DNA of 53,944 nucleotides from Chitinophagaceae bacterium (GTDB taxonomy: Bacteria > Bacteroidota > Bacteroidia > Chitinophagales > Chitinophagaceae). The stretch lies in NCBI GenBank assembly GCA_947447825.1, contig CANFLL010000017.1, positions 1 through 53,944 of the forward strand, in the 5' to 3' direction. The notes beneath the pieces are model-generated. The model saw nothing but the letters and a program-made list of their open reading frames with translations. It searched no databases and was not told the origin of the DNA. The translations under genes and the position numbers were made by a program. Positions 3,073-53,944 of the stretch are shown one piece after another. How positions within the stretch are numbered: the stretch's first letter is position 1; every line of letters begins with the position of its first letter.

Positions 3073-3495
3073 CTGTACAGTAATGGAGCATTACTGTACA
3101 GGAAAACCTTTTTACTGTACAGTAAAATCATTTTACTGTACAGTAAATTCATTTTCCTCTACAGTAAAATCGTTTTACTGTAGAGTAAAACCTTTTTCCT
3201 CTACAGTAAAATCATTTTACTGTACAGTAATGAACTTTTACTGTACAGTAAAAATTGTGTCTGTTAAGCTAAAAGTTATGTTTTTATAGCTAAAAAGGTT
3301 GTTTCCTAAGCTAAAAGTTGTGTCTTTTAAGCTAAAAGTTATGTTTCCTAAAATAAAAGTTAGATCTTCTATGGTAAAAGTGATGTTTGCTAAGGTAAAA
3401 GTTACCTCAATTTAAATAGCAATTACGTTTACTTTCACAAAAGCTGTGTCTGTTAAGCTAAATGTTATGTTTATATAGGTAAAAGTTTGGAAGTA
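3073..3495. repeat. Array A: about 20 units in strict 21-bp register, palindromic word drifting to a second word
   Basis: The cores CTGTACAG/CTCTACAG/CTGTAGAG start at 3073, 3094, 3115, 3136, 3157, 3178, 3199, 3220 and 3241, exactly 21 bp apart. The best units contain the perfect palindrome TTTTACTGTACAGTAAAA. A second word built on GCTAAAAGTTATGTTT follows, with TAAAA at 3270, 3291, 3312, 3333, 3354, 3375 and 3396 and again at 3459 and 3480, in the same 21-bp phase as the TAAAA of the palindromic units. Two degenerate units (3417, 3438) keep the spacing. The open frame across this array is a by-product of a period divisible by three. The rest of the 2641-3815 gap is AT-rich and holds only the terminator above and no recognisable gene. 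Confidence 0.93.
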
Positions 3496-3815
3496 ATTTA
3501 TTTATACTTTTTATCTTTATGAACGTGATTTTTAATATTAAAGAAAAACTATCATCTATAAGTGATTCTTTTATTGATTCTGCAAAACAATTAAGTTCTT
3601 TTTTTATTAATCAATTAATAATAATACAAAAAGTCTTGTTTGCTTTTTTTTTAGTAATGTTGCTTTGTAAGAATAATTTTTGGCGTTAATTGTGGCTAAT
3701 TTGATTTTTTTGCAGCTTTTTTAATATACAAGTATTTTCATAGCAAGCATAATTTGGGTTAAGGGAATCTTGTTCTTAAACATTTTTCTTAATATTATTT
3801 AATAACACAACATAC

Positions 3816-4583
3816 ATGACAAGAATTTCAATTGTTTTTTGCTTTTTTCTCATTTCCATTCTTCCCAATAAGTCTTTTGCATGGGGAAGTAAGGGGCATC
3901 AATTAGTGGCTGAGATAGCTTATAAGTATTTAGATGAAAATACGCAGAACTTAGTGAAGCACTACTTAAAAAGAACCACCATAGCCGAAGCTGGAACATG
4001 GATGGATGATATGCGTTCTAATAATTATTATGATTATATGAAAACATGGCACTACATTGATATTCCGAGAGATAGTGTTTATAAACCAGTTAGTGAAGGC
4101 AATATTGTTACGGTATTGAATAGTATTCTCAATGCCATGAAGCACAAAGAAAATCTTAAAGAAAGTAAAATTAAGGAGTACACATTAATGGCTTTTCATT
4201 TAGTAGGCGATCTGCATCAGCCACTTCACACAGGATACACCGATGACAAAGGCGGCAATGCCATCAATGTTAAAGCACCTCATTATTCTGGTAACCTTCA
4301 TAGTTTTTGGGATACTGAAATAATTGAGCAAAAGAATATAAACATAGATAGTTGCACCCAGTTTTACAGCACTTTCAGTCCGGCTCAAATTAAAGGTATC
4401 ACCAATATTAATTTGTTGCAGTGGATGCAAGAATCTCGTTCTTTTTTAGATAGGGTTTACAATTTTAAAGACGGAAATATCACTAAAGAATATATTGATA
4501 GTAACACCGAAGTAGTAGAAAAACAACTGTTGATTGCTGGTTTGCGTTTGGCAAGTGTGTTAACTGAAATGTTTAAAGCATAA
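3816..4583 (+). CDS. S1/P1-type zinc-dependent nuclease
   Basis: A 255-residue secreted protein. The signal peptide (1-22) ends FA before W23, which would become the mature N-terminus; in S1/P1 nucleases and phospholipase C relatives the N-terminal Trp itself binds zinc. Other family landmarks are WGSKGHQLVAEIA (H28), TWMDD, KTWHYIDIP, the AFHLVGDLHQPLHTG block with two metal-binding His, GGNAINV and NLHSFWDTEII. The length is typical. The family hydrolyses single-stranded DNA and RNA and 3'-nucleotides, here probably in the periplasm or outside the cell for phosphate or nucleotide scavenging. It lies between two T9SS genes in the same direction with an 84-bp gap to the next. Confidence 0.92.
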   Translation: MTRISIVFCFFLISILPNKSFAWGSKGHQLVAEIAYKYLDENTQNLVKHYLKRTTIAEAGTWMDDMRSNNYYDYMKTWHYIDIPRDSVYKPVSEGNIVTVLNSILNAMKHKENLKESKIKEYTLMAFHLVGDLHQPLHTGYTDDKGGNAINVKAPHYSGNLHSFWDTEIIEQKNINIDSCTQFYSTFSPAQIKGITNINLLQWMQESRSFLDRVYNFKDGNITKEYIDSNTEVVEKQLLIAGLRLASVLTEMFKA

Positions 4584-4667
4584 ACGGTACTTCTTTTCCA
4601 GAAAACTATTTTATTGAAAACATTTTTCTTAAATCTAAATTATTGATTTCTAACAACTAATAAATTA

Positions 4668-6191
4668 ATGAAACGAATTTTAGCACTGGCTTTTACTTTA
4701 ATTTTATGTGCATCTTTGAATACGCTACAAGCACAAGTGAAAATTTTATTTGATGACACTAAAAATCAAACTTCTGGTAGTGCCGATTGGGTTATTGATG
4801 CAGATGTAACTAAATATGCTGTTCCCCAATTACCTACGCCAAGCCAAACTACTGTTACATCGAAAACTACTGACACTTTTTGGACAGGTGCTTTATCTAG
4901 TTGGGGCATTGACTGTGTTAATAAAGGGTATCATGTGGAATCTTTGCCCTCATCAGGAAAAATTACCTATGGCAGTAAAACAAATGCGCAGGATTTGAGC
5001 AATTATAAAGTGTACATTATAGATGAACCAAACACAAAATTTACTGCTACTGAAAAAACAGCTATTCTGAATTTTGTAAAGAATGGTGGTGGATTGTTCA
5101 TTATTTCTGATCATGCAGGATCTGATAGAAACAACGATGGCAGTGATTCTCCTACAGTTTGGGATGATTTGTTTACAAATAATGGCACGGTAAGTAATCC
5201 TTTTGGGATAAGATTTGATACGACTAATCCTAATGGAAAAACTTATCCATCAGACATTACAGAAGTAAGTACAAATTTAACAAAGTTGACCAACCCCATT
5301 ATAAAAGGGACTTATGGAACGGTGACCAAACTTAGTTTTTCTAGAGGAACAACGATGGTTTTAGATACGGTGGCTAACAATACCGTTAAAGGGGTTGTTT
5401 TTTCAAAACAATCTACAGGTATAACAAGTGGGGCAATGGTTGCTTATGCTAAATATGGCAAAGGAAAAATAGTTGCTATTGGGGATAGCTCACCCATGGA
5501 TGACGGAACTGGATTTACTAATACTGGTTTATACAAAAGTTATTCTGGCGATAGTAAAGTGGCTGATAATCATCGCTATTTATGTATGAACGCCACTATT
5601 TGGTTGGCTACTACAGATACTGTTTTGCCAATAAATTTTGTGAACGTAACTGGTACTAATAGTAATAACAGTACCACCATTCAATGGCAAGTGAATGGTA
5701 GTGTCAATGAACAATCCAATTATGAAGTGGAGCGTTCTATTGATGGTAATAATTTCAGTACGGTTACTGACGTTAAAGCTGCTAAAAATGTAAACAACGC
5801 ATTAAGTAATTACGAGTTTTCAACTAAGGAAAGCATAACTTCTACCGTTTATTATCGAATTAAAGCTATTGATAATGGGGCAATCACCTATTCGAAAGTT
5901 GTTTCAATAACTCCTTCGCAAGCAACTAGCAAAATAAATATCTTTCCAAACCCTATTTCTTCCAACACAAATAGCTCATTTACGGTGGCTGAGTTAACAG
6001 CAGGAAGTTTACTTACAATAACTAATTTGCAAGGGGTAAAATATTTTGAACAAAAAGTTACTTCGCCATCTATAACGCTAAACACAAATAATGTAGGTGG
6101 AAAAAAATTGTTGAATGGTGTATATATCGTAACTGTTAAATCGTTACTCAACAATACTTCTTCTGTAAGTAGATTGGTTGTAGGGAAATAG
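4668..6191 (+). CDS. Secreted T9SS cargo protein with GATase/DUF4350-like domain
   Basis: A 507-residue protein. The signal peptide (1-22) ends LQAQ. Residues about 25-310 resemble a class I glutamine-amidotransferase-like (DUF4350/ThuA-type) alpha/beta fold: VYIIDEPNTKFTATEKTAI, then FVKNGGGLFIISDHAGSD and later GKIVAIGDSSPMDDG, but no nucleophilic Cys is evident at the usual elbow, so I would not call an enzyme. Residues about 325-415 are a fibronectin-like linker. The C-terminal ~80 residues are a type A T9SS sorting domain (INIFPNPIS, then LLNGVYIVTVKS and SRLVVGK). A large-loop terminator follows. Function unknown. Confidence 0.8.
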   Translation: MKRILALAFTLILCASLNTLQAQVKILFDDTKNQTSGSADWVIDADVTKYAVPQLPTPSQTTVTSKTTDTFWTGALSSWGIDCVNKGYHVESLPSSGKITYGSKTNAQDLSNYKVYIIDEPNTKFTATEKTAILNFVKNGGGLFIISDHAGSDRNNDGSDSPTVWDDLFTNNGTVSNPFGIRFDTTNPNGKTYPSDITEVSTNLTKLTNPIIKGTYGTVTKLSFSRGTTMVLDTVANNTVKGVVFSKQSTGITSGAMVAYAKYGKGKIVAIGDSSPMDDGTGFTNTGLYKSYSGDSKVADNHRYLCMNATIWLATTDTVLPINFVNVTGTNSNNSTTIQWQVNGSVNEQSNYEVERSIDGNNFSTVTDVKAAKNVNNALSNYEFSTKESITSTVYYRIKAIDNGAITYSKVVSITPSQATSKINIFPNPISSNTNSSFTVAELTAGSLLTITNLQGVKYFEQKVTSPSITLNTNNVGGKKLLNGVYIVTVKSLLNNTSSVSRLVVGK

Positions 6192-6213
6192 GACTTTTTT
6201 TCTATAGGATATT

Positions 6214-6282
6214 TACCTCAATGATTAGATGGCAAAGAATAAGGTTTACTTATTTTTCCTGTAATCATTGAGGTATTTTTTT
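6214..6282 (+). terminator. Terminator after the second T9SS gene
   Basis: A perfect 14-bp inverted repeat (TACCTCAATGATTA at 6214-6227, complement at 6262-6275) with a 34-nt loop, followed by a T-run. The long loop is unusual but the stem and T-tail are clear. Confidence 0.75.
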
Positions 6283-6524
6283 GGGTAAAACAAAAGGAAA
6301 GTTTTCTGTTAGGGGAAGGGGGATTGAAACTAAAAGTTATTTATTCAACAATTAAAATAGCTTTTTAATAGAGTTATTAATGCCGTATTTGCAAAGATCA
6401 AAGCAGCCCTTTGAGTACTTTGTTTTTTTCTAGTAATCCTTATGGTAACGTTGCAGAAAAAAACGAAACTTTTATCCTAAATGACGTATTCAATAAAATC
6501 ATTTTGTTAAATCAAGAAAATGAT

Positions 6525-6554
6525 TTGTCATATTATCTTCAACCAATATCTTTG
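6525..6554 (+). promoter_or_regulatory. guaB promoter placed 3 bp before the ATG
   Basis: TTG at 6525-6527, a 19-bp spacer and TATCTTTG at 6547-6554 match the Bacteroidota -33/-7 consensus exactly. The ATG of guaB follows 3 bp later, so transcription would begin at or just inside the start codon, giving a leaderless mRNA. Confidence 0.6.
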
Positions 6555-6557
6555 CCT

Positions 6558-8060
6558 ATGGCAATAATAAAATCTTCCCTAGAGGAAAAAACTCCAAGCT
6601 CAAGACTATTTGGTGTAGGTCTTACTTTTGACGACGTACTCTTAATGCCCGCTTACAGCGAAATTCTTCCAAGAGACGTTAACATTCAATCGAATCTTAC
6701 TAAAGACATAATTTTAAATGTTCCTATCCTTTCGGCAGCGATGGATACGGTTACAGAAGCTAATTTGGCTATTGCATTGGCTAGAGAAGGTGGTGTGGGT
6801 ATTCTGCATAAGAATATGACTATTGAAAAACAAGCCGAACAAGTACGCAAAGTGAAAAGAAGTGAGAGCGGGATGATTATTGATCCAGTTACGCTTACTG
6901 CTGATGCCACTGTGGCAGATGCTTTGCGCATTATGCGTGAAAATAAAATTGGTGGTATTCCAATTGTGGATGCTAATAATTTACTTGTGGGTATTTTGAC
7001 TAATAGAGATTTGCGTTTTGAAATAGCCAATAAAACCAAAAAGATAAGCGAGGTAATGACCTCCACTAATTTGATTACTGCACCTGATGGAACGGATCTT
7101 AAAAAGGCAGAAAAGATTTTACAACAATATAAAATTGAAAAACTTCCCGTAGTAAGCAATGATGGTCATTTGATTGGGTTAATTACTTACCGAGATATTT
7201 TGCAACTTAACAATAATCCAAATGCCGTTAAGGATGGTTTTGGAAGATTATTGATAGGGGCGGCATTAGGAATAACGAAGGATATGCTGGATAGGGCATC
7301 GGCCTTGCAATATGTAGGGGTAGATGTGGTTACGCTTGATAGTGCGCATGGGCATAGTAAAGGCGTAATTGATGCACTGAAAGAATTGCGTAAGAATTTT
7401 AAAGACCTTCAGATTATTGCTGGTAATGTGGGTACTTCTGAGGGAGCAAAGGCTTTAGCCGAGGCTGGTGCAGACGCAGTAAAAGTGGGTATTGGGCCAG
7501 GATCCATCTGTACAACACGCATAGTGGCAGGTGCGGGTGTGCCTCAATTGACGGCTGTGATGGAAGCCTCTTATGCGTTGAAAAACACAGGCGTTCCGGT
7601 GATAGCTGATGGTGGAATTAGATACACAGGCGACATGGTGAAGGCTTTAGCGGCGGGTGCAAACGCGGTAATGATGGGTAGTGTTTTTGCAGGAGTAGAA
7701 GAAAGCCCAGGAGAAACCATCATTTTTGAAGCAAGAAAATATAAAGAATATAGAGGCATGGGAAGTTTGGGTGCCATGAGCCAAGGGAGTGGTGACAGGT
7801 ATTTTCAGGATGTGGAAGAGGGCATTAAGAAGTTGGTGCCAGAAGGAATTGAAGGAAGGGTGGCATACAAAGGAAGCCTTAGCGAAATTGTGTATCAATA
7901 TGCAGGTGGATTGAGGGCAGGAATGGGCTATTGTGGCGCAAAAACAATTAAGGATTTGCAGCAAGCAACCTTTGTTCAAATAACCAATGCGGGTATGAAA
8001 GAAAGCCATGCACATGATGTTGACGTAACGAAGGAGGCACCTAATTACAGTAGGAAATAA
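6558..8060 (+). CDS. guaB: Inosine-5'-monophosphate dehydrogenase
   Basis: A 500-residue protein catalysing NAD-dependent oxidation of IMP to XMP, the first committed step of GMP synthesis, in the cytosol. Seen: the N-terminal [11 protein letters not shown] motif, two CBS domains inserted at about residues 100-220 ([33 protein letters not shown]), the catalytic loop [11 protein letters not shown] with Cys318, the substrate-binding DGGIRYTGD, and the flap near EGRVAYKGS. The frame is open for another 49 codons upstream to a TTG, but that extension has no family similarity and overlaps the promoter, so ATG 6558 is the start. Length and architecture are normal. Confidence 0.97.
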
Positions 8061-8124
8061 ACCAGTGTACGCTTTATTTTTTTATCAATTATATTTATTA
8101 CTTCATCAATAACGAACAGTTTTA

Positions 8125-8166
8125 AACTTTGGATTCACAACTCACAACTTTCGACACTCAACTTTT
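8125..8166 (+). repeat. Heptanucleotide-register element at the 5' end of the HAD phosphatase gene
   Basis: Six consecutive 7-mers without slippage: AACTTTG, GATTCAC, AACTCAC, AACTTTC, GACACTC, AACTTTT. The putative TTG start codon (8129-8131) is the end of the first 7-mer, so the first dozen codons are written in this repeat. Confidence 0.75.
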
Positions 8167-8704
8167 CAGTCAAATTGACAAAGCATGGACACTTTTCATA
8201 GATCGTGATGGGGTTATTAATCATGAAAAGAAAGCTGATTACATCAGAAATTGGGATGAGTTTAAGTTTTATGATGGAGTGTTAGAGGCGATGAAAATAA
8301 TTAATGAAAAATTTGGAGTTATTGTAATGGTCACCAACCAAAAAGGAGTTGGCAAGGGGTTGATGACTGTAAGTGATTTGGACAACATCCATGAAAACAT
8401 GTTGAATAGTGTGGTAAACAATAATGGGAGAGTAGATAAAATATACTATTGCTCCGACCTAGAAGATACTTCGCCCAATAGGAAACCAAATGCTGGAATG
8501 GCATTTCAAGCTAAAAATGATTTTCCTACTATCGATTTCAACAAAAGTTTTATGGTAGGCAACAAGCTTAGTGATATGAATTTTGGTAGGAATGCTGGCG
8601 TTAAAACCGTTTTTGTGGCTACTACTAATCCTGAAACGCCATTTCCTCATCCAAGTATTGATGTTAGATTTGCTGATTTGCTAGAATTTGCGAAAGCATT
8701 ATAA
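8129..8704 (+). CDS. HAD-IIIA phosphatase, HisB-N/GmhB-like
   Basis: About 191 residues with all four HAD motifs: DRDGV (D25 nucleophile, D27 acid/base), TNQKGVGKG (Thr of motif II), RKPNAGM (Lys of motif III) and MVGNKLSDMNFGRNAG (Asp of motif IV). The order and spacing match the HisB N-terminal / heptose-1,7-bisphosphate phosphatase subfamily. The Cys/His zinc-binding loop of GmhB is not present (only YYCSD), so the substrate is uncertain. No ATG lies upstream of the nucleophile: the only conventional candidate is TTG 8129, inside a heptamer repeat, so the true N-terminus is unclear. It follows guaB by 68 bp in the same direction. Confidence 0.8.
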   Translation: MDSQLTTFDTQLFSQIDKAWTLFIDRDGVINHEKKADYIRNWDEFKFYDGVLEAMKIINEKFGVIVMVTNQKGVGKGLMTVSDLDNIHENMLNSVVNNNGRVDKIYYCSDLEDTSPNRKPNAGMAFQAKNDFPTIDFNKSFMVGNKLSDMNFGRNAGVKTVFVATTNPETPFPHPSIDVRFADLLEFAKAL

Positions 8705-8788
8705 TTTATCCTTAAAATTAATAAATCCTTGTCGGCAAACTGTTTTTGATAGTCTAGTCCATTAACTTTGATTCAACACAAAAACAAA

Positions 8789-10360: not shown

Positions 10361-10382
10361 AATTGATAGGAAATATTTAAAA

Positions 10383-11170: not shown

Positions 11171-11236
11171 GTAATGATTAATGATTAATGTTTAGTGATA
11201 AATATTAATCATTAAACTTTTATCATTAAACATTAA
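11171..11236 (+). repeat. Heptamer-register element with polarity switch between the OsmC gene and metZ
   Basis: Nine 7-mers in exact register from 11172 to 11234: TAATGAT, TAATGAT, TAATGTT, TAGTGAT, AAATATT, AATCATT, AAACTTT, TATCATT, AAACATT. The first half is approximately the reverse complement of the second, so the RNA could fold as a long AU-rich hairpin directly after the OsmC stop codon. Confidence 0.85.
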
Positions 11237-11242
11237 GAAGAG

Positions 11243-15050: not shown

Positions 15051-15300
15051 TCACCCCACAAGTGGTATTATCCCACTTCCAAAGTCCCATATTGCCACTT
15101 GCTAGGTGGCATTATACCACCTATAGAGTACCATATTACCACTTTATAGATGCTATTATACCACTTGATAAGTACCATCTTGCCACCTACTGGGTGGTAT
15201 TATACCACCTTTAAAGCCCCATATTAGCACTTGTGAGGTGTCATTATGCCACTTGCTAAGTGTTATATTGCCACTTGTTAGGTGATATAAACCTATTGCT
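15051..15300. repeat. Array B: about 11 units in strict 22-bp register
   Basis: The CCACT/CCACC element recurs at 15073, 15095, 15117, 15139, 15161, 15183, 15205, 15227 (as GCACT), 15249 and 15271, exactly 22 bp apart, with degenerate units at both ends (15051, 15293). Good units contain the palindrome GGTGGTATTATACCACC; others drift (AAGTACCATATTGCCACTT). This is the only array with a 22-bp rather than 21-bp basic period. Confidence 0.92.
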
Positions 15301-19008: not shown

Positions 19009-20937
19009 CTATTCTCCCTTCTTAAAGCTATAGATAAACTTGCCCTTTGCCTGTGGATCCTTAGCCGTAAACAACACCCTAGTAATCACCTTATTATCCC
19101 AATGGCGCATCAGTTTACCATACTCTGGCCCCGTCATCAATGGGGTTTCTGTACTTACAGAAAAGGCCTCACCATCATATCTAAGAACCAATTTATCCTT
19201 ATCTCCCACAAAAAAAATCTTGCCTTTTTGAGTTAAATCTACTTTGACAACGGTCATAAACGTTTGTTGCAAAGATGTGGGTTTCTTGTCTAATAAATAT
19301 TCATCTACCACCAACACTTCTTCTTTATCTTTTAGTAAACTATTGGTTCTTTTCCACGAAACAACACCTGCTTCTTTGGGATAAGTACCAGCAATATCCA
19401 TCACCAATTTATCTTCTTTTGCATTGGTTGTATTTACCACATTTCTCGCTGTAAATTCTTTGCCATCATGTTCTCCAAATCCATTAATAGTGGGCAAATT
19501 ATGGCATTGAGATTGATTATTCCATAATTCATACCGATGACTAGAAAAGGTTTTAGCGGTGTACGTTCCCCTACCCACGTCAATTAAGAAGGGTTCATTA
19601 TTCAAGTAAATAAGAAAATCGCCTACATCATTATGGTTGTGGCTCTTGCCATTATGTCCCGCATGCGTACCCAAAAACAAGTTTCCTTTTGTTCGGGCAG
19701 TCATTGTTTGCACATCATCTATCCAAACATGTTCAGGGAATTTGTAAGGAGTAGAGAAAGTAGGCATCGTTTTTATCGTTATAAAATTCTCTATAGACCT
19801 AAACTTCTGAAAACTATCAACACTGTAATATGGCTTGCTATTGGCACTTTGCCACAATCCAAACTGCTTCATTTGTTCATCATTTATGGCGATGCCAAAG
19901 CGGTATAAAAAAGCTCCACTCAGGTTGTTGATAGTTGGTTCGCCATCGCCAATATTCACAAAATAGTTGCCCCCAATGTGCATTTTATAGATGTAGGAAG
20001 CCATCTTTTGTATCAATGGCACATCAAAAATTGTCACCTTGTTATTGGTTCCTTTTTGCGCCCATTCCAAACAATCGAAGGCACTTGCACCGGCAGCATC
20101 CCAATAATGTGCGCCTTCATCGCAACCGCCATCATCGCCCAATCCATTAAAATATCTATCCACGCCCTTCATGCCGTTATACAACATTTCGCTTCGTTTG
20201 GCATTGTCTTTTTCAATTAAAAGATTGGTAGCAATAAAATTAGACATGATCCAAGGATTCCAGTTATTCACTTTTACATCCTTTTTTAGGTAAGGATATT
20301 TATCCAGATTCTCTATCAAAGGTTTAAAGAAACGCTTATTGACTTCTAGTACAATCCGCTTGCGCAACAGCGGGCTAACTGCATCGAGTTTATCCCCAAC
20401 AAAATAATTTACTAAGCCTAAAGTAGTAGCTGTTTCGGCAGTAAACAGTTCCACATAAGGGTTTTCAACATCTGCTATGCCTTGCGAAGGAATAATATGC
20501 GCAGGCACACCCCAATAACTTTCTTCGCAGATAGACCATAATCCTTCCATGATGGCATCCATAAAACGTCCCTTACCTTCAATGCTTTCTGCAACAGCCA
20601 ACTGGGCAAGAGTGGTGCGTTTTACAAAAGATTGGTCTTCATAAAGCGATCTCGTACCATTCTTTTTGAAGGCAAGTATTGAACTAAAAGAAACGGAGTT
20701 AAACTTAAATTTCAGTCCACGCTCTCCATCTTTTATTAGTTTATTCAAAATGCTATCAGGCACTTGCTGCTTCCATTCTTCGGGAGAGGAAGGAAAAGGT
20801 TTGAACTTTTCGATGGGCACAATTGATTGATTAATGTCAGCCAATGTGTATTTGTTCATCAACAGATTCCGTTGTGTAACTTGAGCATTGGAATTAAAGC
20901 AGGTAAAAACTGCGACTGCTATTATTATTTTCTTCAT
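19009..20937 (-). CDS. Heparinase II/III-family polysaccharide lyase
   Basis: A 642-residue secreted protein (signal peptide ending SNAQ). An N-terminal alpha-helical toroid (about 60-370, with WGVPAHIIPSQG, NNWNPWIMSNF and DDGGCDEGAHYWDAAG) is followed by a beta-sandwich heparinase II/III domain, whose hallmark HAGHNGKSHNHNDVGDFLIY and DVGRGTYT are present. The N-terminal YWDAAG and the HNHND region supply the residues used for proton abstraction in this fold. Substrate could be heparan-type, glucuronan, alginate or another uronate polymer. It is third in the operon, 51 bp after the SGNH gene and 30 bp before GH88. Confidence 0.9.
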   Translation of the reverse strand: MKKIIIAVAVFTCFNSNAQVTQRNLLMNKYTLADINQSIVPIEKFKPFPSSPEEWKQQVPDSILNKLIKDGERGLKFKFNSVSFSSILAFKKNGTRSLYEDQSFVKRTTLAQLAVAESIEGKGRFMDAIMEGLWSICEESYWGVPAHIIPSQGIADVENPYVELFTAETATTLGLVNYFVGDKLDAVSPLLRKRIVLEVNKRFFKPLIENLDKYPYLKKDVKVNNWNPWIMSNFIATNLLIEKDNAKRSEMLYNGMKGVDRYFNGLGDDGGCDEGAHYWDAAGASAFDCLEWAQKGTNNKVTIFDVPLIQKMASYIYKMHIGGNYFVNIGDGEPTINNLSGAFLYRFGIAINDEQMKQFGLWQSANSKPYYSVDSFQKFRSIENFITIKTMPTFSTPYKFPEHVWIDDVQTMTARTKGNLFLGTHAGHNGKSHNHNDVGDFLIYLNNEPFLIDVGRGTYTAKTFSSHRYELWNNQSQCHNLPTINGFGEHDGKEFTARNVVNTTNAKEDKLVMDIAGTYPKEAGVVSWKRTNSLLKDKEEVLVVDEYLLDKKPTSLQQTFMTVVKVDLTQKGKIFFVGDKDKLVLRYDGEAFSVSTETPLMTGPEYGKLMRHWDNKVITRVLFTAKDPQAKGKFIYSFKKGE

Positions 20938-26596: not shown

Positions 26597-26701
26597 CTAT
26601 TTAGTTCAAATGTTTGAATACAAGAAACGTTTGTTTCGATACAAGTCCCTTTTGTAACGATTAGCTTTGCTAATTGTATAAATACACGGAACAAATGGTA
26701 G
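26597..26701. repeat. Array F: short, degenerate 21-bp repeat cluster
   Basis: ATACAAGAAACGTTTGTTTCG (26618), ATACAAGTCCCTTTTGTAACG (26639), ATTAGCTTTGCTAATTGTATA (26660) and a weaker unit at 26681 follow one another every 21 bp, each with internal dyad symmetry. It appears to be an eroded or young member of the same class as arrays A to E. Confidence 0.6.
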
Positions 26702-31975: not shown

Positions 31976-32842
31976 TGGGCAATATTAAACAACATCAATA
32001 AATTTTTTATTAAATGTGCAAAAACTATTGGTGCGTGTAAATAGTAAAAGGTTACTTCATAGGTTATGGGTGTTAGTATTTATTTTGTAGGTAAGTAGTT
32101 GAATTGAAATAAACAACATTTTTCTTTGTTCAACTATGGAGGGTAATTTAACAGCAAAGCCCGCAATTTTTTTTTGCAAAGAATTTGAAAAGAAAGAAGT
32201 AATTAAGTTGAATCGTTGCTTTTTGTGGACGCAAAGATTTAGCTTGTAAATGTGTCATTTATTTTAAGTTGACTACTTAATAGGCATCTGATTATTCGTT
32301 ATAAGTAATAATGCAAATCAAGGGTTGAATTTGTGTTGAGGTAGGATATAAATTGTAATAGTTGCGAGTACCAACGTCATAGTTGTGAGTACCAACGTCA
32401 TAGTTGTGAGTACCAACGTCATAGTTGTGAGTACCAACGTCATAGTTGTGAGTACCAACGTCATAGTTGCGAGTACCAACGTCATAGTTGTGAGTACCAA
32501 CGTCATAGTTGCGAGTACCAACGTCATAGTTGCGAGTACCAACGTCATAGTTGTGAATACCTGTCGTTAGTGATTATTTTGTAGTTTAAAAACAACCGGT
32601 TTGCTCCTTCTATGCATAAACTATTGCAACTAATTTTATCAATCACATTTTACATTGCGGTTTCCTTACGGAAATGTTTTTTGAACAATGTTGTTAAATT
32701 ATTTTTCAAGAAACAAAGCTGTAATCTTTTATGATCAAGTGAATTATCATTCTTATCTTTCCAATCATTAAATCATTGGTATAATAACTATCATTGCAAA
32801 AAGTAATTACATTATGTTTCAATCATCAGTTAATAATTATCA
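31976..32842. other. AT-rich gap between the helicase gene and queG
   Basis: Besides array C and the heptamer element at 32821-32869, I see no gene here. The short frames across array C on both strands are by-products of its 21-bp period. Confidence 0.6.
32361..32570. repeat. Array C: ten near-identical 21-bp units
   Basis: The unit GTTGTGAGTACCAACGTCATA starts at 32361, 32382, 32403, 32424, 32445, 32466, 32487, 32508, 32529 and 32550 (last one partial). The only variation among full units is T/C at the fifth base (GTTGT or GTTGC). Each has the interrupted dyad GTTG...CAAC with GTAC between. It is the most homogeneous array in the window, implying recent expansion or active homogenisation. 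Confidence 0.97.
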
Positions 32843-39169: not shown

Positions 39170-39333
39170 ACTTACTTTTAAGTTTAATTTGTTTGAAATA
39201 AGAATGAAAACTGTTTAAAAAATGATTTAAGTGCTGGTGCAAATGTATTGTTGCAGGCCATGCAAGTTGAAATTTAAATCTTAAACTTCCGTTTTGTGTT
39301 CTATTATCAACCAAAAAGGAGCTTTACCATTGC

Positions 39334-39605
39334 CTCGTGAATCAATAGGAAAGCTTCGCCAATCAATATTATTGCCTAATAATACATTCTTATTGTCTCG
39401 CGAATCAATCGGAAAGCCTCGCTAATCAAAATTATTGTTGTAATAATACATTCTTATTGTCTCGCTAATCAATCGTAAAGCCTCGCTAATCAAAATTATT
39501 GTTGTAATAATACAATCTTATTGTCTCGTAAATCAATCGTAAAGTCTCGCTATTCAATATTATTGTATAATTACACCTTCTTATTGTATCGCGCAGCAAT
39601 CGGAA
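39334..39605. repeat. Array D: 64-bp higher-order repeat built from 21+21+22-bp subunits
   Basis: CTCG-starting modules begin at 39334, 39397, 39461, 39525 and 39588 (spacing 63, 64, 64, 63). Each module contains CTCGCGAATCAATCGGAAAGC, CTCGCTAATCAAAATTATTGT and a 22-bp third unit ending in CTTATTGT. The first two are clearly related, so the module is a trimer of the basic 21-bp unit. ATTATTGTTGTAATAAT is a local dyad. The frames across it (39486-39701 minus) are likely by-products. Otherwise the gap 39170-39806 holds nothing recognised. Confidence 0.9.
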
Positions 39606-42062: not shown

Positions 42063-42244
42063 TAAATTAGTGATGGTGAATAGTGAATAGAAAGAAGTTT
42101 AAAGTTGAAAATAGAGCCCGGAAAAATGTTGATTATTTTTTATAGGTTCATTTTTAAACCACAGACTTTTAACTTTCGAATTTCAACTCTCAACTTTTGA
42201 CTTGTGACTTTCAACTTTTCACTCTTGACTTTTAAAATATAATT
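42061..42244. repeat. Two opposed heptamer-register arrays between rsh and the next gene
   Basis: Left arm 42061-42109: AGTAAAT, TAGTGAT, GGTGAAT, AGTGAAT, AGAAAGA, AGTTTAA, AGTTGAA. Right arm 42164-42247: GACTTTT, AACTTTC, GAATTTC, AACTCTC, AACTTTT, GACTTGT, GACTTTC, AACTTTT, CACTCTT, GACTTTT, AAAATAT, AATTATG. The arms are roughly complementary. The rsh stop codon falls in the first unit and the next ATG in the last. Confidence 0.9.
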
Positions 42245-42796: not shown

Positions 42797-42852
42797 AATT
42801 GATATAAAAATGGTCTAAAGTAGTGAAACTTTAGACCATTTTTATATCAATT
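42797..42852. terminator. Strong bidirectional terminator
   Basis: A perfect 24-bp stem (AATTGATATAAAAATGGTCTAAAG, 42797-42820, and its complement 42829-42852) with an 8-nt loop, between two convergent genes. Confidence 0.88.
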
Positions 42853-44789: not shown

Positions 44790-45102
44790 TGCTAAGGAAG
44801 TGAAAAGTAATAAGTTGAAAGTTTTATTAATAAATACATTCGTTGCATAAAAGATTTTTGCATTAAAATTTTGTAGGTGATATATAGACGCATATCAAGT
44901 GACTTAATAAAGCAAAAAACTTTTATCCAACAGGAAACTGCTTGAAGTAAAATTTCAAAATTTATTTTGATTTGATTTTCTCAATGAGGAATGGGGTTAA
45001 TAAATAACCCAAATGCATAATTAGTTAAGTGCTTCAACTATTAAACTTTTTTACTGTTTGCAGTTCTGACATTTTTCAATCTTTTTACAATTAACAAACA
45101 CA
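44790..45102. other. AT-rich intergenic gap
   Basis: Nothing beyond AT-rich sequence is recognised; no clear terminator stem or promoter. Confidence 0.5.
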
Positions 45103-47036: not shown

Positions 47037-47355
47037 AAAAAGGGGTGTTTTTGATAAAAATGGAAGCTATGTAGGCAAGTGTTAAGATATGCGGATGAAA
47101 CTCTATAATTACGATTTGTTAAATATGCTGAAAAGGCTTGTGGATGGTAAGAACGTTGGTTTTAAAATTGAAGTTTAGTATGATATTGCTAACAACAAAT
47201 CTGTAAATCTATCTACTTAAAATGCAGAAATATTTTGTTCAATCATAAATAAAATAAATATTTCAGACGATGCTCTATTTATAACCAAATCGATTTCACA
47301 AAATAATCGGTTACTTTTTAATTCTACTTTCAAACATTAGATTTCATACTGGTTG

Positions 47356-47817
47356 TGTGTAATATTGTGAGGTTATTCATTAGTTTTTCATTAAAATCTT
47401 TATTGTAATAGAAAAACCCATGTATTGAATAAATATAATATTGAGGTTGGTTACAATTGCTAAAATTGATTTGACTAAAAGGAATGATTAATTTCCTTGA
47501 TTTCAAATGAAGGAAGGTTCTCTCATTTCGCAAACTCAATTCTGCTGAGTAAAATCTATAAAACCCTTAAAACCCTTTACTGTCAATGAATACATCATTT
47601 AGTTTAGCAATTTTAGTATCAAAAAACGTCATTTATTCACCTGAGTCAGTCCACAACTCAGGTGAGTCCTTGGCTGACTCAGGTGAGTCGTCGACTCGCT
47701 CAACTGGATCATTGTCTGATTCAACTGAGTCGTTGACTCACTCAGGTGAATCTTTGTCTGACTCAGGTGAGTCGTGGACTGACTCAAGTGAACTTAAGTG
47801 TGACTCAGTTGAATAAA
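47356..47817 (+). repeat. Duplicated element, copy 1: conserved 5' region plus array E (21-bp units)
   Basis: From about 47356 (GTGTGTAATATTGTGAGGTT) to 47817 the sequence is similar throughout to 53480-53944, in the same orientation. The first ~280 bp are unique sequence; array E follows, with CTCA/TTCA at 47636, 47657, 47678, 47699, 47720, 47741, 47762, 47783 and 47804, all 21 bp apart. The core GACTCAGGTGAGTC is a near-perfect palindrome. A frame from ATG 47586 reads through as heptads of the type SGESLSD and is open in both copies. A minus-strand frame in the 5' region (47330-47539) has a stop codon in copy 2, so it is probably not a gene. Confidence 0.92.
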
Positions 47818-48254
47818 TGGAAGAAAGAGGACAAAAGAATGTACTCATTTTGATATGCTGCGTGTTTGGGATAAGCATCGAGAAAGTTTAGAACTTTATT
47901 AGAGTTGGAACGGGTGCATAAGAGTTTATCGCTTTTTCTCTTGAAATTAGCGGTAGATTTCCTGAGTGATAACGATCATTTTAATTTGTCAAAATAGAAT
48001 TAAGTAGAAATTATTTCAAGTTGAATCAGCTAGTCCTGGTCTTTGTATTTGCAATTTGCTCGTTTTAAGCGAAGAAATGACGTACTGGTAAATGAGAGGT
48101 ATTGTTAATTACGGTAAGGTTTGAAGAGGGTTCTTATTTTTATTCAGACCGATGGTGCAGCTTTTAAAAGTGTATAAGCATTCGAATGGCTTACGGAAGT
48201 TGAAACTAATAAATAAAATTCCCATACTTACCTTTTATGTAATCTTGAATTTAA

Positions 48255-48262
48255 TATATTTG
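48255..48262 (+). promoter_or_regulatory. -7 box of the urease accessory operon
   Basis: TATATTTG lies 21 bp before the ureE ATG at 48284. No convincing -33 TTG at the usual distance. Confidence 0.4.
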
Positions 48263-48283
48263 AGACTCACACATTCATTATTA

Positions 48284-48775: not shown

Positions 48776-49461
48776 TGGATAATGCGCTTTTAGGGTTATT
48801 ACAACTGTCGGATCCCACATTACCGATAGGAGGTTTTTCTCATTCGGCAGGATTAGAAACGTTTGTGCAACAAAATATAGTGAAAGATGCGGCTACTGCA
48901 AAAGAATTTGTGACTGAAATGCTAGCACAGAATCTACAATATACTGATGCCGCTTTTGTTTCTTTGGCTTTTGATGCTGCACAAGCAAACGACTTTGAGC
49001 TGCTTTTAGCACTAGATAATGAGTGTACTGCCGTAAAACTACCTATAGAAATGCGGCAGGCAAGCCAGAAGTTAGGACTAAGATTGATGAAGATATTTCA
49101 ACCATTGTGTAAACATGAATTGGCAGATAGGTATATGGCTGCCATAAAAACACAAGAGGCGGCAGGGCATTATTGCATTGCCTTTGGATTATATTCCTTT
49201 GCTTTTGGTGTTGATAAAAGAGATGCTTTAACAGGTTTCTATTTTAATGCGGCGGTTGGTTTTGTGACAAATTGTGTTAAACTTATTCCCCTTGGTCAAC
49301 AGGATGGGCAACATATATTGTTTTCATTGCACCCATTGATTACAGAACTTGTGGAGAAAACAATGCAGCCCAATATAGATTTGATAGGTTTATGCTGTAC
49401 TGGATTTGATATTAGAAGTATGCAGCACGAACAACTATATTCGAGGCTGTATATGTCTTAG
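48775..49461 (+). CDS. ureF: Urease accessory protein UreF
   Basis: A 228-residue all-helical protein: QLSDPTLPIGGFSHSAGLETFVQQ is the UreF N-terminal signature; ECTAVKLPIEMRQASQKLGLRL and GHYCIAFGLYSFAFGV follow. It acts as the GTPase regulator that couples UreG to the UreD-urease complex. Translationally coupled to ureE by a 1-bp overlap. A heptamer-register element starts right after the stop codon, in the 164-bp gap to ureG. Confidence 0.94.
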   Translation: MDNALLGLLQLSDPTLPIGGFSHSAGLETFVQQNIVKDAATAKEFVTEMLAQNLQYTDAAFVSLAFDAAQANDFELLLALDNECTAVKLPIEMRQASQKLGLRLMKIFQPLCKHELADRYMAAIKTQEAAGHYCIAFGLYSFAFGVDKRDALTGFYFNAAVGFVTNCVKLIPLGQQDGQHILFSLHPLITELVEKTMQPNIDLIGLCCTGFDIRSMQHEQLYSRLYMS

Positions 49462-49463
49462 TA

Positions 49464-49624
49464 GTTGTTTGTTGTTAGTGATTAGTGATTAGTGATAAGT
49501 CGGGAGTTGAAAGTTATAAGTATTAGGGTATAAGTTTTAGTCTAGTTTTTTTAAAAGTTAATGAGTTTATTTGTCTTAAGGGGATGGGGTTCATTTTTAA
49601 TCATAATTCAAATCTTAAATAATA
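49464..49624 (+). repeat. Heptamer-register element between ureF and ureG
   Basis: Eleven 7-mers in exact register from 49464 to 49540 (GTTGTTT, GTTGTTA, GTGATTA, GTGATTA, GTGATAA, GTCGGGA, GTTGAAA, GTTATAA, GTATTAG, GGTATAA, GTTTTAG), then a reverse-polarity group TTAATCA, TAATTCA, AATCTTA, AATAATA at 49597-49624. The two groups could pair. Confidence 0.85.
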
Positions 49625-49625
49625 G

Positions 49626-50264
49626 ATGGCGGATAGAAAGTATATAAAGATTGGGGTTGCAGGACCTGTGGGTTCTGGAAAGACTGCGCTGATAGAAAGG
49701 CTAAGTAGAAAGTTGGCAAAGGAGTATAGTATTGGGGTGATAACCAATGATATTTACACGAAGGAAGATGCGGAGTTTTTAACACAGAACAGTTTACTTC
49801 CGGCTGATAGAATTATTGGGGTAGAAACGGGCGGCTGTCCGCATACGGCAATAAGAGAAGATGCAAGTATGAATCTGGAAGCTGTTGAGGAAATGGCTAA
49901 TCGTTTTGCCGATATTGAATTAATATTTATTGAGAGTGGAGGCGATAATCTATCGGCAACATTCAGCCCCGATTTGGCAGACCTTACCATCTTTGTGATT
50001 GATGTGGCAGAAGGAGATAAAATTCCTCGTAAGGGTGGTCCTGGTATTACAAGAAGTGATTTATTAGTGATTAATAAAATAGATTTAGCGCCTTACGTTC
50101 ATGCAGATTTGGGCGTGATGGAACGAGATGCACGATTGATGCGTAAAGGAAGTCCATTCATCTTTACTAACCTGATGAGCTTACAAGGATTGGAAGACGT
50201 GATTGGCTGGATAAAGAAATATGCTTTGCTGGAAGCAGTATCCGAACCAAAACTTTGGCGATGA
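49626..50264 (+). CDS. ureG: Urease accessory GTPase UreG
   Basis: A 212-residue SIMIBI GTPase. P-loop GPVGSGKT (13-20), switch/metal motif [11 protein letters not shown] with C71-P72-H73 that binds nickel at the dimer interface, [15 protein letters not shown] and [18 protein letters not shown], and the guanine-specificity motif [11 protein letters not shown] hydrolysis drives nickel delivery to the urease site. The stop codon overlaps the ureD start (ATGA). Confidence 0.97.
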
Positions 50265-51058
50265 TTGCAAAGTTGCACATAACCACCGCCCTCCGTGACG
50301 GTATTACTTATTTTAAGGAAAGTTATTTTACGCCGCCCTTTAAGGTTGCCAACATAACGGAGGATAAAAAGGCAAATAAGCTCAATTTAATGCTGATGTG
50401 TTCTTCGCCAGGCATATTGGATGAGGATATTTATGAAATGAAGATAGAGCTGGCGGAGGAATGTTTTCTTCAACTACATACTCAGTCCTATCAGCGTTTG
50501 TTTACCATGAAAAAGGGGGCATCTCAAAGAATGAATGTTCATTTGCAGCCTAATGCATCTTTTATTTATTTGCCACATCCTTCGGTTCCTCATGAGGATT
50601 CTATTTTCACAGCTATCAATAAGATTTATCTAACTGATGGTTGCACCTTGGTTTGGGGTGAAGTATTAACCTGTGGTAGAAAGCTAAATGGAGAGGTGTT
50701 TAAGTTCTCTAAATACCATAATATCACAGAAATATATTTGAATAATAAATTGATAATAAAAGAAAACCTATTGATGCAGCCTGCAACTATAAACGTAAAA
50801 GCTATTGGTCAATTGGAGGGCTTTACACATCAGGCTACCTTAATTTATCTGAATGAAACTGTTGATACAAAAAAGTTAAACAAGACAATTAGCAATTATC
50901 TTTCCTTGCAAGTGGGGATTATTTTTGGTATTTCTACCCCACAAAAGAATGGATTAATCATAAGGCTGTTAGGACAGAAAGGCGAACAACTTGACAATTG
51001 CCTAAAAGCTATTACTACTCAATTACCAATCATTAAACAAGTAGCGTATGCAATCTGA
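50261..51058 (+). CDS. ureD: Urease accessory protein UreD (UreH)
   Basis: A 265-residue protein from ATG 50261, overlapping ureG by 4 bp; an in-frame TTG two codons earlier is less likely. Beta-rich UreD pattern: [88 protein letters not shown]. It is the scaffold that links UreF-UreG to the apo-urease. Sequence is divergent from enterobacterial UreD, as usual for the family. Confidence 0.88.
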
Positions 51059-51749
51059 GATGGGAATATTGTTGGCAGCGGCAGTAACTGTTGGATGCTT
51101 GCACACTGCTGCAGGTCCTGATCATTATTTGCCCTTCATTGCCCTGTCAAGATCTCGTGGATGGAGCTTTGCCAAAACATTGCTCTGGACAATCATTTGC
51201 GGTTGTGGTCATGTGTGGAGTTCTGTATTGCTCGGTTTGGGTGGAGCCGCTTTGGGATGGTCATTAACTAAAGTGAAAGTACTAGAAAACGTTCGGGGTG
51301 GCATTGCAGGCTGGGCATTGCTTGGTTTTGGCATTATCTATGGCATTTGGGGACTATATCGAGCTTATGCAAACAGGCCGCACAAACATTTCGACATGTT
51401 CGAAGATGGCAACATCTATGTTTATGAACATAAACATGGTACAGCGATACGGCAAGAAGAGAGACACAAAGTAACTCCTTGGGTAATGTTTATCATTTTT
51501 GTTTTAGGCCCTTGCGAACCCATGATACCCCTTCTTTTCTATCCAGCAGCTAAGAGTTCTTGGTTCGGAATGTTGTTGTTGATAATAGTTTATACATTAG
51601 TAACTCTTGCTACCATGATAATCATGGTTATACTAGGTTATTACGGATTGGCATTCATTAAAACTGAAAAACTAGAACGTTATGCTCATGCATTAGGTGG
51701 ATTAACCCTTTTTATTTGTGGAACGGGAATGGTGTTTTTGGGGTGGTAA
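51048..51749 (+). CDS. UreH/HupE-like nickel permease
   Basis: A 233-residue membrane protein with about 6 transmembrane segments. GCLHTAAGPDHYLPFIALSRSRGW carries the H-x(4)-D-H type signature of NiCoT/UreH-like transporters in the first segments; CGCGHVWSSVLLG and VLGPCEPMIPLLFYPA are further conserved blocks. A His-rich cytosolic loop at about 112-140 (PHKHFDMFEDGNIYVYEHKHG, ERHK) could hold metal. It overlaps ureD by 11 bp and is the last gene of the operon. Nickel import is inferred from context; export is possible. Confidence 0.82.
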   Translation: MQSEMGILLAAAVTVGCLHTAAGPDHYLPFIALSRSRGWSFAKTLLWTIICGCGHVWSSVLLGLGGAALGWSLTKVKVLENVRGGIAGWALLGFGIIYGIWGLYRAYANRPHKHFDMFEDGNIYVYEHKHGTAIRQEERHKVTPWVMFIIFVLGPCEPMIPLLFYPAAKSSWFGMLLLIIVYTLVTLATMIIMVILGYYGLAFIKTEKLERYAHALGGLTLFICGTGMVFLGW

Positions 51750-51870
51750 ACTTTTTTTATAATGTGTAGTATCTAGTTATTTACATTCTTAATCTGCCTT
51801 CAATTTAACTGATTACAACCTATCTACTGATGTTTGTTTTAAGACACCTAGATCTACTAATAATTTATAC

Positions 51871-53376
51871 TCATTTTTCAAGTTGTGCTTGATATAAGGA
51901 ATGAGGCAAAACACCACCCAGGTTTGTTGCTTCCCAAATGCCATTTGGCCTAACTAATTTTGCCCCCTCATTTTTACCAATAAAGCCAATATTCCAATTG
52001 TACGCCATCGGAGGGTTCTGAATGGCAGCAGTTGCAGAAGTACAATTCCAAAAAACTTGATATGCCCCACTCCAACCATGACCTGTTCCCCAATTGCCCC
52101 TGTCTTGTGCATTCATAGCACCATCCGAAACAATACAATCATATAGTGTTCCAGTAGCCCAACGGTGGTGCGGCCCAATGTCAGCATGGGTTAGCGTAGC
52201 GGTGCAGTGCGTGAACACATTGGGACCACAAACTCTAGCACCAGTCACATAGTCATGCCTTCCATTGCGTGCAGAGCAATTCTTTATCAAATTCAACTGT
52301 CCATCACAGTTAAAAGAATACCGTCTTCCTCCTTCTATTTTTGAAATAGGATCTAGGCAAGAACAGTTATCAACAGTAATATTTTTTGCAGAAGAATGAA
52401 TACTAACACAACTCTGCCCGAAATGAAGAGAAGTAACCTGCTGAATCCAACAGTTTTCTGCGGCTTCTATACTGATAGCTTCCCATCCATGCTGCTCATC
52501 ATTATCAGTAGTGTAGGTTGATTTCATAAGTATATTTTCAATGGCACACTCACTAATTCTACCTTTAAATGAATACGGAATTAAGGTGTTTTCTCCATAT
52601 TTATCATCTAATGCCATCATTACAGGAATGTTTACTGTGATTAATCCTGTCTTTTTATCTATTGCTGTAACTATTCTTTCATAGCTCAAATCGAACCCTG
52701 ATGCAGACCAGTTTTTGCCTCCCTCCCGTAAATCTTTGATTTCATCCATACCAATTGCATGAATCCATTCATTATTAGCAACTCTATTAATTAATACAGG
52801 TTGACCAATGTGGAGTTGTTTCACATTCTTTACATGAAAACTGAATGCACCCACAGGCACATATATATCGGTAATTGGTTGTGCTTCCTGCACTTGTTTA
52901 TTCATCTTTCCTTTGCCTTTAATGCTGATCAAAACACGTTGAGTTGTGGCATTAAACGTTATCAAAGTTCCTTTTTCAGTATCTCCTTCTCCACGTAGAA
53001 TTATATTATTTGAAATGATGTTGATTGTAGAATTAATGTTATAGTTGCCTGCTTTTAAAAGAATAACTCGAGGTTCATTATCTGTTGTAAGGTTGCTAAC
53101 ACTATCAATGAGGTATTGAAGTGCATGAGTGTCATCGCTGCCGCTTGGTAAAAGTGTTGCAATAATTTTTCCTTTTGGAAATGGTTTTTGTCCATTATGA
53201 TAGCCAACGGCAGAAAAGTCTGGAATGCTATTGCCTAATGAATCATGCCAATACGCTAATTTATTTTCCTTGTTTTTATACACCCACTTTGACGTTGTTT
53301 GCGCAACAGTAGTTAGATAGGAGAGGATAAATAAGCAAGCAATAAGATTGCTTTTAAAGTTTGGGATAGAGTGCAT
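51871..53376 (-). CDS. Secreted right-handed beta-helix protein, pectate-lyase superfamily
   Basis: A 501-residue protein with signal peptide (about 1-25, ending TVAQ). DFSAVGYHNGQKPFP and SGSDDTHALQYLIDSV are the start of a Pectate_lyase_3-type beta-helix; repeated N-rich rungs follow (IENILMKSTYT, NITVDNCSCLDP, LIKNCSARNGRHDYVTG, VFTHCTATLTHADIGPHHRWATGTLYDCIVSDGAMNAQDRGNWGTGHGWSGAYQVFWNCTS). The GPHHRWATG and NWGTGHGWSGA blocks recur in a secreted Bacteroidota subgroup. It may bind or cleave a uronate polysaccharide, which would link it to the lyase operon at 17.8-24.2 kb; not proven. Confidence 0.75.
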   Translation of the reverse strand: MHSIPNFKSNLIACLFILSYLTTVAQTTSKWVYKNKENKLAYWHDSLGNSIPDFSAVGYHNGQKPFPKGKIIATLLPSGSDDTHALQYLIDSVSNLTTDNEPRVILLKAGNYNINSTINIISNNIILRGEGDTEKGTLITFNATTQRVLISIKGKGKMNKQVQEAQPITDIYVPVGAFSFHVKNVKQLHIGQPVLINRVANNEWIHAIGMDEIKDLREGGKNWSASGFDLSYERIVTAIDKKTGLITVNIPVMMALDDKYGENTLIPYSFKGRISECAIENILMKSTYTTDNDEQHGWEAISIEAAENCWIQQVTSLHFGQSCVSIHSSAKNITVDNCSCLDPISKIEGGRRYSFNCDGQLNLIKNCSARNGRHDYVTGARVCGPNVFTHCTATLTHADIGPHHRWATGTLYDCIVSDGAMNAQDRGNWGTGHGWSGAYQVFWNCTSATAAIQNPPMAYNWNIGFIGKNEGAKLVRPNGIWEATNLGGVLPHSLYQAQLEK

Positions 53377-53479
53377 CGTTAGTTTATTTTGTTTTCGTTA
53401 AACAGCATCTAACTAAGAAAGTTTAAATGAAAAAAGTGTTTAATCTAATTCTACTTTGACACATGAGAGTTTACAATGT

Positions 53480-53944
53480 TTGTGTGTAATATTTTGAGGT
53501 TAAGTATTCGTTTTTTAGTAAAATCTTTGTTACAATAGGTAAACCCATGTTTTGTAAGAACAAAATATTGAGGTTGTTTACACTAGTGAAAATTGGTTTG
53601 ACCGAAGGAAATGATTAATTGCCTTGATTTCAAATGAAGGAAGCTTCTCGCATTTCGCAAACCAAATACTGTTGAGTAAAATCTACAAATGTCTTAAAAC
53701 CCTTTACTGTCAATGAATACATCATTTAATTTAGCAATTTTAGCATCAAAAAACGTCATTTATTCACCTGAGTCAGTCCATGACTCACCTGAGTCGTGGA
53801 CTGACTCAGGTGAATCTTTGTCTAACTCAGGTGAGTCGCCGACTAACTCAGGTGAATCTTTGTCTGACTCAGTTGAGTCGTCGCTTGACTCAGGTGAATC
53901 TTTGTCTGACTCAGGTGAGTCGTGGACTGACTCAAGTGAATTTA
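53480..53944 (+). repeat. Duplicated element, copy 2 (cut by right edge)
   Basis: Direct repeat of 47356-47817. The 5' ~280 bp are conserved with scattered substitutions and short indels, then array E units have CTCA/TTCA at 53763, 53784, 53805, 53826, 53847, 53868, 53889, 53910 and 53931, exactly 21 bp apart. This copy has at least nine units. The frame from ATG 53713 again reads as SGESLSD-type heptads and is open to the window end. Unit order differs between the copies, so units have been gained, lost or converted. Confidence 0.92.

Follow-up and report, generated by a model that had tools for sequence, protein, structure and literature searches.

Evenly spaced arrays of 21-bp units with unrelated words in a Chitinophagaceae genome, possible satellite-like sites of chromosome architecture

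Between the ordinary genes of the window, a whole contig (C17) of 53,944 nucleotides from a Chitinophagaceae bacterium (GenBank CANFLL010000017.1, assembly GCA_947447825.1), lie short arrays of tandem units about 21 bp long, most of them with a word (i.e., a unit sequence) of their own. The genome amounts to 4.65 Mb in 187 contigs, and its closest named relatives, judged by one window protein, are uncultured Chitinophagaceae metagenome-assembled genomes. Arrays of this kind recur throughout the quarter of the genome that was sampled and in those genomes of the genus that were well sampled, and they follow one another along the chromosome more evenly than random intergenic positions do. They share only step length, array size, dyad tendency and chromosomal distance. 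We suggest, tentatively and at somewhat less than even confidence, that they are satellite-like, word-independent sites of chromosome architecture, a function that we infer from these features.

The first-pass annotation of the window had listed seven arrays of one grade with unrelated words. Six of them were confirmed by Tandem Repeats Finder (TRF), repeat search and direct reading; none is assigned a strand. Array A (positions 3056-3433; 3068-3404 in TRF) has a period of 21 bp and consists of 7.8 copies of TTACTGTACAGTAAAATCATT followed by 7.4 copies of TAAAAGTTATGTCTTTTAAGC, the phase remaining unchanged. Array B (15062-15288; TRF and direct reading) has periods of 22, 44 and 88 bp and words containing GGTGGTATTATACCACC. 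Array D (32358-32561; TRF) holds 9.7 copies of ATAGTTGTGAGTACCAACGTC at a period of 21 bp with 96% matches; its word family recurs on contigs C25 and C57, where the flanks are not shared. Array E (39329-39605; TRF) repeats a higher-order unit of 64 bp (about 3 x 21 bp) 4.4 times. Array F (47634-47825; 47656-47812 in TRF), with the word GACTCAGGTGAGTCGTTGACT, and array G (53747-53944; 53769-53941 in TRF), of the same word family, have periods of 21 and 42 bp. The words of A, B, D and E are indeed unrelated, but F and G have one word between them, being parts of two copies of a single dispersed element that has inverted ends. The remaining member of the list, stretch C (26600-26700, no strand assigned), lies inside the longest array-free gap of the window and has no TRF entry at 26.60-26.70 kb. 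Its best lag-21 match is 35/63, compared with 25.3 +- 4.0 in 138 stretches called array-free, four of which reach 33/63 with a top value of 53; it is a weak remnant, a decayed array at best.

The genes around the arrays were called with a home-made gene finder, and the Pfam scan took in 20 proteins of the window. Array neighbours with a Pfam match are ordinary: S1/P1 nuclease, queG-like, relA/spoT, trypsin-like protease, cytochrome c and ureE genes. Array D sits between divergent helicase-like and queG-like genes, and array E is flanked by the trypsin-like protease gene and the relA/spoT gene, while both neighbours of array B and one neighbour of array G are without Pfam match. An RNA-family scan of the window gave two tRNAs at gathering thresholds.

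To survey periods, 854 kb of DNA from the same genome (the window and 40 further stretches) was scanned. TRF returned 131 repeat clusters, the smallest period being 21 in 52 of them, 42 in 11 and 41 in five, with one or two clusters each at 62, 63, 64, 83 and 85. A lag test requiring at least 36/63 matches at a given lag detected 71 arrays at lag 21, against one each at lags 19 and 20, five at lag 22 and three at lag 23, so that the broad spread of periods for which a check had been proposed is not there, although the count of 71 takes in some arrays of the 7-bp class. Minor peaks fall at lags 36 (12 arrays), 41 (8), and 18 and 62 (7 each). With raised thresholds at lags 21, 41, 42, 44 and 62-64 we obtained a stricter set of 71 arrays, reduced to 61 after removal of heptamers (the 61 having lag-7 identity under 0.45). 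Total length in these 61 is peaked, with a median of 217 bp and a standard deviation of 61, i.e., about 10 units. Units are homogenised inside arrays, and higher-order periods of 42, 63 and 84 bp are frequent; diverged edges occur as well. A period of exactly 41 bp (20 + 21) recurs in different words (L091, L096, L116, L125, L166, L176, L241, L242), as does one of 62 bp, and periods exceeding a multiple of 21 (43-44, 64-65) occur too.

The second peak of the scans lies at 7 bp and its multiples (51 arrays at lag 7 and 34 at lag 14; smallest TRF period 7 in 14 clusters and 14 in 13). These heptamer and 14-bp arrays, e.g., of GACTTTT or TAATGAT, form a separate repeat class in the genome, present in the window at 42164-42233, 11172-11236, 49475-49500 and elsewhere. 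An origin of the 21-bp arrays from heptamers (3 x 7) was rejected, lag-7 identity being mostly 0.11-0.37 in the arrays checked. Cyanobacterial chromosomes contain heptameric short tandemly repeated repetitive (STRR) sequences. Intergenic TAACTGA repeats are reported from Beggiatoaceae (PMC4679880). Both resemble our arrays as intergenic head-to-tail repeats with many arrays per genome, but they have a 7-bp unit and one word; here, 61 of 71 arrays show no such unit and the other 10 were set aside, while the heptamers proper are unevenly spaced.

Placement between genes, as claimed for the window, holds more widely. Among the 61 arrays, 47 lie in called gaps and five at stretch ends where one side is without a flanking gene, while nine overlap ORFs of only 168-324 bp, about as long as the arrays; a coding origin (21 bp as seven codons) was rejected on these grounds. 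Array-bearing gaps are tandem in 63 cases, divergent in 47 and convergent in 13, compared with 59, 30 and 11% of array-free intergenic bases, and the orientation of the neighbouring genes is thus of little weight. Arrays within 60 bp of a gene start are few (3 of the 47 divergent ones, 4 of the 66 tandem ones), and 7 of 14 convergent arrays have a 3' end no more than 60 bp away. Of the conserved gene adjacencies with at least 150 bp, 20 are array-free in both genomes and one carries arrays in both (21 in all), which is suggestive of arrays avoiding conserved gene neighbourhoods, on numbers that are too small. In a related genome, array L244 (G006:C53 near 60263-60512) stops 13 bp short of a gene whose first residues look like those of an IS256-type transposase.

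The dyad symmetry noticed in the window is a general tendency. Controls were made by permuting the columns of all units of an array jointly, which leaves repeats and composition intact. Compared with these, 27 of 39 arrays folded better at z < -1.64 (mean z -2.9, 35 of 39 negative; -7.5 for the first 210 bp of array A), and the fold potential is present on both strands. Likewise, 57 non-redundant words exceed GC-matched intergenic 21-mers in self-complementarity (z 5.2). The arrays could be thought of as RNA-level elements, hairpin trains at gene borders that would end or insulate transcription on both strands. Folding on both strands, the scarcity of arrays close to gene starts and the convergent arrays near 3' ends agree with such a role, but neither convergent nor tandem gaps are clearly preferred, nor, as far as placement goes, are 3' ends, the site of intrinsic terminators. 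Furthermore, changes on a single side number 918 and compensating ones 110, so pairing is not strictly maintained, and even spacing is not predicted. We consider this explanation unlikely.

No motif is clearly shared across the words: the best motif of the 57 words reached 4.07 bits, about 2 standard deviations above the mean of 30 permuted controls (3.79 +- 0.13) and inside their range (maximum 4.13). Arrays have a G+C content of 0.389, other intergenic DNA one of 0.309. As to the DNA curvature that the first-pass annotation had envisaged, A/T content at the 10.5-bp harmonic does not exceed that of intergenic 21-mers (z -0.3); AA/TT steps at 10.5 bp are raised against permuted columns (z 3.2), as are other harmonics, and the first purine/pyrimidine harmonic is raised against both controls (z 4.9 for permuted columns, 2.4 for intergenic 21-mers). 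The absence of a clear common motif bears on repetitive extragenic palindromic (REP) sequences, whose arrangements are known as bacterial interspersed mosaic elements (BIMEs) and whose linked Y1 transposase is the RAYT (REP-associated tyrosine transposase). REP palindromes tagged with GTAG and CGTC are known (PMC3733652). Like these, our arrays consist of palindromic intergenic units of about 20 bp, and G000 has five Y1_Tnp matches, so that mobilisation by RAYTs might be envisaged. Unlike them, however, they keep a strict 21-bp step and no common tag emerged from the motif comparison, in which GTAG and CGTC were not searched separately. Nor do Y1_Tnp counts track arrays across 20 genomes: G009 (67% complete) has none and G010 one, both with arrays, whereas G013 has nine and shows no array in its 8 kb. 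We regard a REP/BIME-like nature as very improbable. No recombinase, whose co-occurrence had been envisaged, was identified.

One array family does belong to an element. Array F lies within a dispersed non-coding element (47318-48003, + strand) with inverted ends at 47318-47334 (+) and 47987-48003 (-), consensus TTAATTCTACTTTGACA, and array G within a second copy (53445-53944, + strand; left inverted end 53445-53461) cut by the contig end. The element measures about 690 bp (copies 588-735 bp), carries the word family GACTCAGGTGAGTC and occupies at least 40 loci of the genome, 75-92% identical, a lower bound since 40 of 98 candidates were scored. Both inverted ends (at least 17 bp) are present in 18 of 30 loci examined; a constant target-site duplication was not seen by eye, and a plasmid search with the F element gave no match. 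A one-mismatch match to the element end also lies at window position 19233. Inverted ends and non-coding content recall miniature inverted-repeat transposable elements (MITEs), and it could be asked whether all arrays are merely interiors of such elements. It is true of F and G and of the element's remaining loci. The other array families, unlike MITEs, lack common ends: in the multi-locus families of the genus besides F/G, no pair of loci matches in its flanks at E 1e-4, except L120/L122 with about 210 bp of flank in common. Moreover, D-family arrays start and stop at differing phases, and at L117:5396 the F/G word stands without the flanks of the element. We regard a general MITE origin as very unlikely, and a single transposon-derived repeat, the other check proposed in the first-pass annotation, does not account for the arrays.

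Across the genus, G000 and the seven same-genus genomes sampled over at least 20 kb carry arrays at a density of 5-9 per 100 kb, their period being 21 or a near-multiple; of the five arrays counted in G012, three mix in steps of 18 and 26/27 bp. Arrays are also present in G002, G003 and G010, while none was seen in the little that was sampled of G005 and G008 (15 kb and 3 kb, plus the amidase and mutL/rsmF loci). No arrays were found in 122 kb from seven other families of the order. Among 80 loci taken from homologues of one window protein, non-coding arrays number 8 in the 123 kb of the eight closest relatives and 12, several with period 20, 22 or 44, in the 1.31 Mb of the remaining 72 loci. 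Repeats at lag 42/63 in other Chitinophagaceae loci (L034, L043, L081; L039, L049, L062) read as lysine/alanine-rich, possibly histone H1-like genes; four of the six lie in long open frames, close to the query gene of the relatives search. In viruses, one and eight contigs, respectively, have one exact match to two array words, and the fetched viral loci show no lag-21 array, a phage collection not being part of the search.

The orthologous locus at an amidase/dihydropyrimidinase gene, where arrays were judged by eye, permits a close comparison. An array is found there in five of eight same-genus genomes with sequence (G001, G003, G004, G006, G010); G012 has a different neighbour, G005 is cut by the contig end, and no close homologue was found in G000, G002, G009 and G011. 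Between the five species coding identity is 0.87-0.92 and that of the right flank 0.85-0.98 (four species, G001 being cut), while word identity is 0.49-0.62 for eight of the ten pairs and 0.95-0.97 for the other two. Between G004 and G010, 50 bp of flank are 0.98 identical and the words 0.60. At this one locus compared closely, words changed quickly between species while period and site stayed. Half-sites at the locus (L272, L290-L294) seem to change independently, as if palindrome halves were exchanged as modules (left, AATAAAAG and AATCCAAG; right, CTTTATT and CTTGGATT). Other loci were compared less closely. Upstream of spoT, four of eight relatives (G003, G004, G006, G007) have arrays with different words, and one (G002) has an array downstream. 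Of seven genomes whose sequence extends 1.2 kb or more upstream of mutL, four have arrays there, the query genome G006 and G000 among them; around rsmF, arrays lie in four of the 12 genomes examined, query genome included (13 matched, G001 was left out), one of these arrays being AT-rich and doubtful.

Homogenised tandem units, higher-order repeats and lineage-specific turnover are properties of satellites in general. Eukaryotic satellite DNA, e.g., alpha satellite, consists of tandem monomers of fixed length with higher-order repeats, and our arrays resemble it also in their diverged edges and in a fast turnover of words with period and site kept. They differ in comprising only some ten monomers of 21 bp, in many intergenic arrays evenly spaced along a bacterial chromosome. 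It is a serious possibility, though in our opinion clearly below even, that they represent a neutral or selfish satellite, i.e., old 21-bp arrays that spread bare or in mobile elements, were homogenised by slippage and unequal exchange and drifted in word without function, the period being inherited since indels are rare. Word families recur at unrelated loci and in other species with flanks that do not match, array A switches word midway in unchanged phase, and one family is carried by an element with inverted ends. The higher-order periods, the diverged edges and the presence of arrays in the well-sampled genomes of the genus, against none in the 122 kb from seven other families, fit equally. 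Indels had been thought absent from the arrays, a sign of kept spacing; this is true by eye, but the ratio of gaps to substitutions is no lower than in control DNA. The non-array parts of the F/G element show 26/1224 (0.021) and 7/534 (0.013), compared with 0.039 in arrays, and selection against indels in arrays was rejected, the control being the flanks of a single element that is possibly constrained itself. A constant period inside one array hence needs no selection, as indels are rare and units homogenised. Still to be accounted for are a period common to unrelated words, an array length that is peaked, an excess of dyads and, most of all, the regular distances between arrays; together with an orthologous site kept under a different word, the last three speak against functionless drift.

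Spacing was measured on sets of contigs, the own ones amounting to 999 kb when pooled. In the first set (C1-C4 and C17) the coefficient of variation (CV) of the gaps between arrays was 0.50, against 0.90 for 2000 random intergenic draws; with slightly different lags (41 arrays) it was 0.48 against 0.90 +- 0.12, and none of 1000 draws was as low. Contigs C5-C10 (39 arrays), finished later to serve as a test, had a CV of 0.585 against 0.874 +- 0.115 (P 0.002), and the relatives G004, G006, G007 and G011 (57 arrays; contig G012.C111, with one array, excluded) 0.60 against 0.81 +- 0.09 (P 0.004). Sequence from the first 20 kb of C5-C10 and from parts of the relatives' contigs was already known when this test was made, though it had not entered the first. 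In the pooled contigs, 78 arrays, extrapolating to about 363 per genome, delimit 67 gaps with a mean of 11.5 kb, none under 2 kb, and a CV of 0.496, a value not reached in any of 1000 draws under each of eight null variants. Across five thresholds (nulls 0.87-0.96) the CV was 0.47-0.52 when the F/G element family was counted and 0.51-0.62 when it was left out; in these ten runs of 400 draws P was 0 in nine and 0.0025 in one. Arrays less than 300 bp apart were merged in the pooled and five-threshold tests, not in that of the three sets. Inclusion of the element-borne arrays made the spacing more regular at every threshold, as expected if all arrays count as one class. The 30 heptamer arrays, conversely, are not regular (CV 0.81, P 0.17-0.41). 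That even spacing is a by-product of regularly placed permissive gaps was rejected: there are 407 gaps of at least 150 bp for 78 arrays, and a lattice so thinned would stay far from regular.

Regular spacing over unrelated words implies that something treats the arrays as one class. An inherited period with neutral drift accounts for one step length in unrelated words but leaves this spacing unexplained, which favours the architectural role proposed at the outset, and, as the first reading had it, geometry appears to be kept rather than sequence, given the changed words at the orthologous locus and the word-independent spacing. The arrays would be recognised through their geometry instead of one sequence and might, for instance, anchor or delimit loops some 10 kb long. 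Each 21-bp dyad might be occupied, always on one face of the helix, by a dimeric DNA-binding protein with little sequence specificity that bridges or insulates. Side-by-side protein binding, a suggestion of the first reading, may thus be involved. A phased dyad array would be retained by selection at intervals of about 10 kb, while the word of each array would be free to drift through slippage or unequal exchange inside it. Put more specifically, and with some more reserve, chromosome-wide sites defined by geometry, each of about ten 21-bp dyads with a fast-evolving word of its own at intervals of about 11.5 kb, may be loop anchors or boundaries of supercoil domains. Such sites, if real, would correspond in bacteria to the positioning of chromatin by satellites. 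To our knowledge, the bacterial repeat classes known so far are all defined by a common sequence. Bacterial chromosome domains of about 10 kb are usually described without fixed boundaries. Supercoiling in "10 kb domains" is the subject of one report (PMC3420936). If a nucleoid protein or a topological effect lies behind the spacing, the arrays would be sequence landmarks for domains of roughly this size, whose maintenance and evolution would thereby become testable.

Several observations weigh against an architectural role. An ordinary dimer with sequence specificity would not readily recognise arrays of unrelated words. HU-family counts are alike within the genus (1-4) and outside it (1-3), without HU expansion. 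The amidase/dihydropyrimidinase locus is array-free in G007 and G008, no array lies upstream of mutL in G002, G005 and G011, and the same-genus contig left out of the spacing test, G012.C111, has its single array in 80 kb. Symmetry is likewise imperfect: when the symmetry of whole units was tested more strictly, array by array, only 9 of the 39 were significant at 0.05, and some arrays, D included, have no dyad excess. Compensating double changes are in modest excess (110 against 69 in the control) beside the 918 single-side changes (control 1269), with an axis chosen to maximise pairing, a choice that favours the result. Finally, indels are not reduced in arrays, the ratio of 0.039 corresponding to 56 gaps and 1447 substitutions in 39 arrays, some of the gaps probably at array edges.

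Among other known systems, plasmid iterons are direct repeats about two helical turns apart whose word is specific to the replicon. The arrays share this distance and the individual words, but they are many, lie by ordinary genes and have dyad-symmetric units, and no recognised replication gene stands alongside them in the window, where the Pfam-matched neighbours are not Rep proteins (those of B and of one side of G being matchless). CRISPR arrays differ as well, the 21-mers being contiguous with no unique spacers; cas genes were not searched for. In titles and abstract openings of the open-access literature we found no such arrays described, a limited negative. Intergenic tandem repeats have been reported in Planctomycetota (PMC9426551).

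Two further repeats were observed in the window. About 85 bp at 44845-44929 have more than 20 dispersed partial matches (74-79%) in the same-genus genome G004 and represent another short dispersed repeat family. At 42797-42852 lies a perfect 25-bp inverted repeat with arms 6 nt apart.

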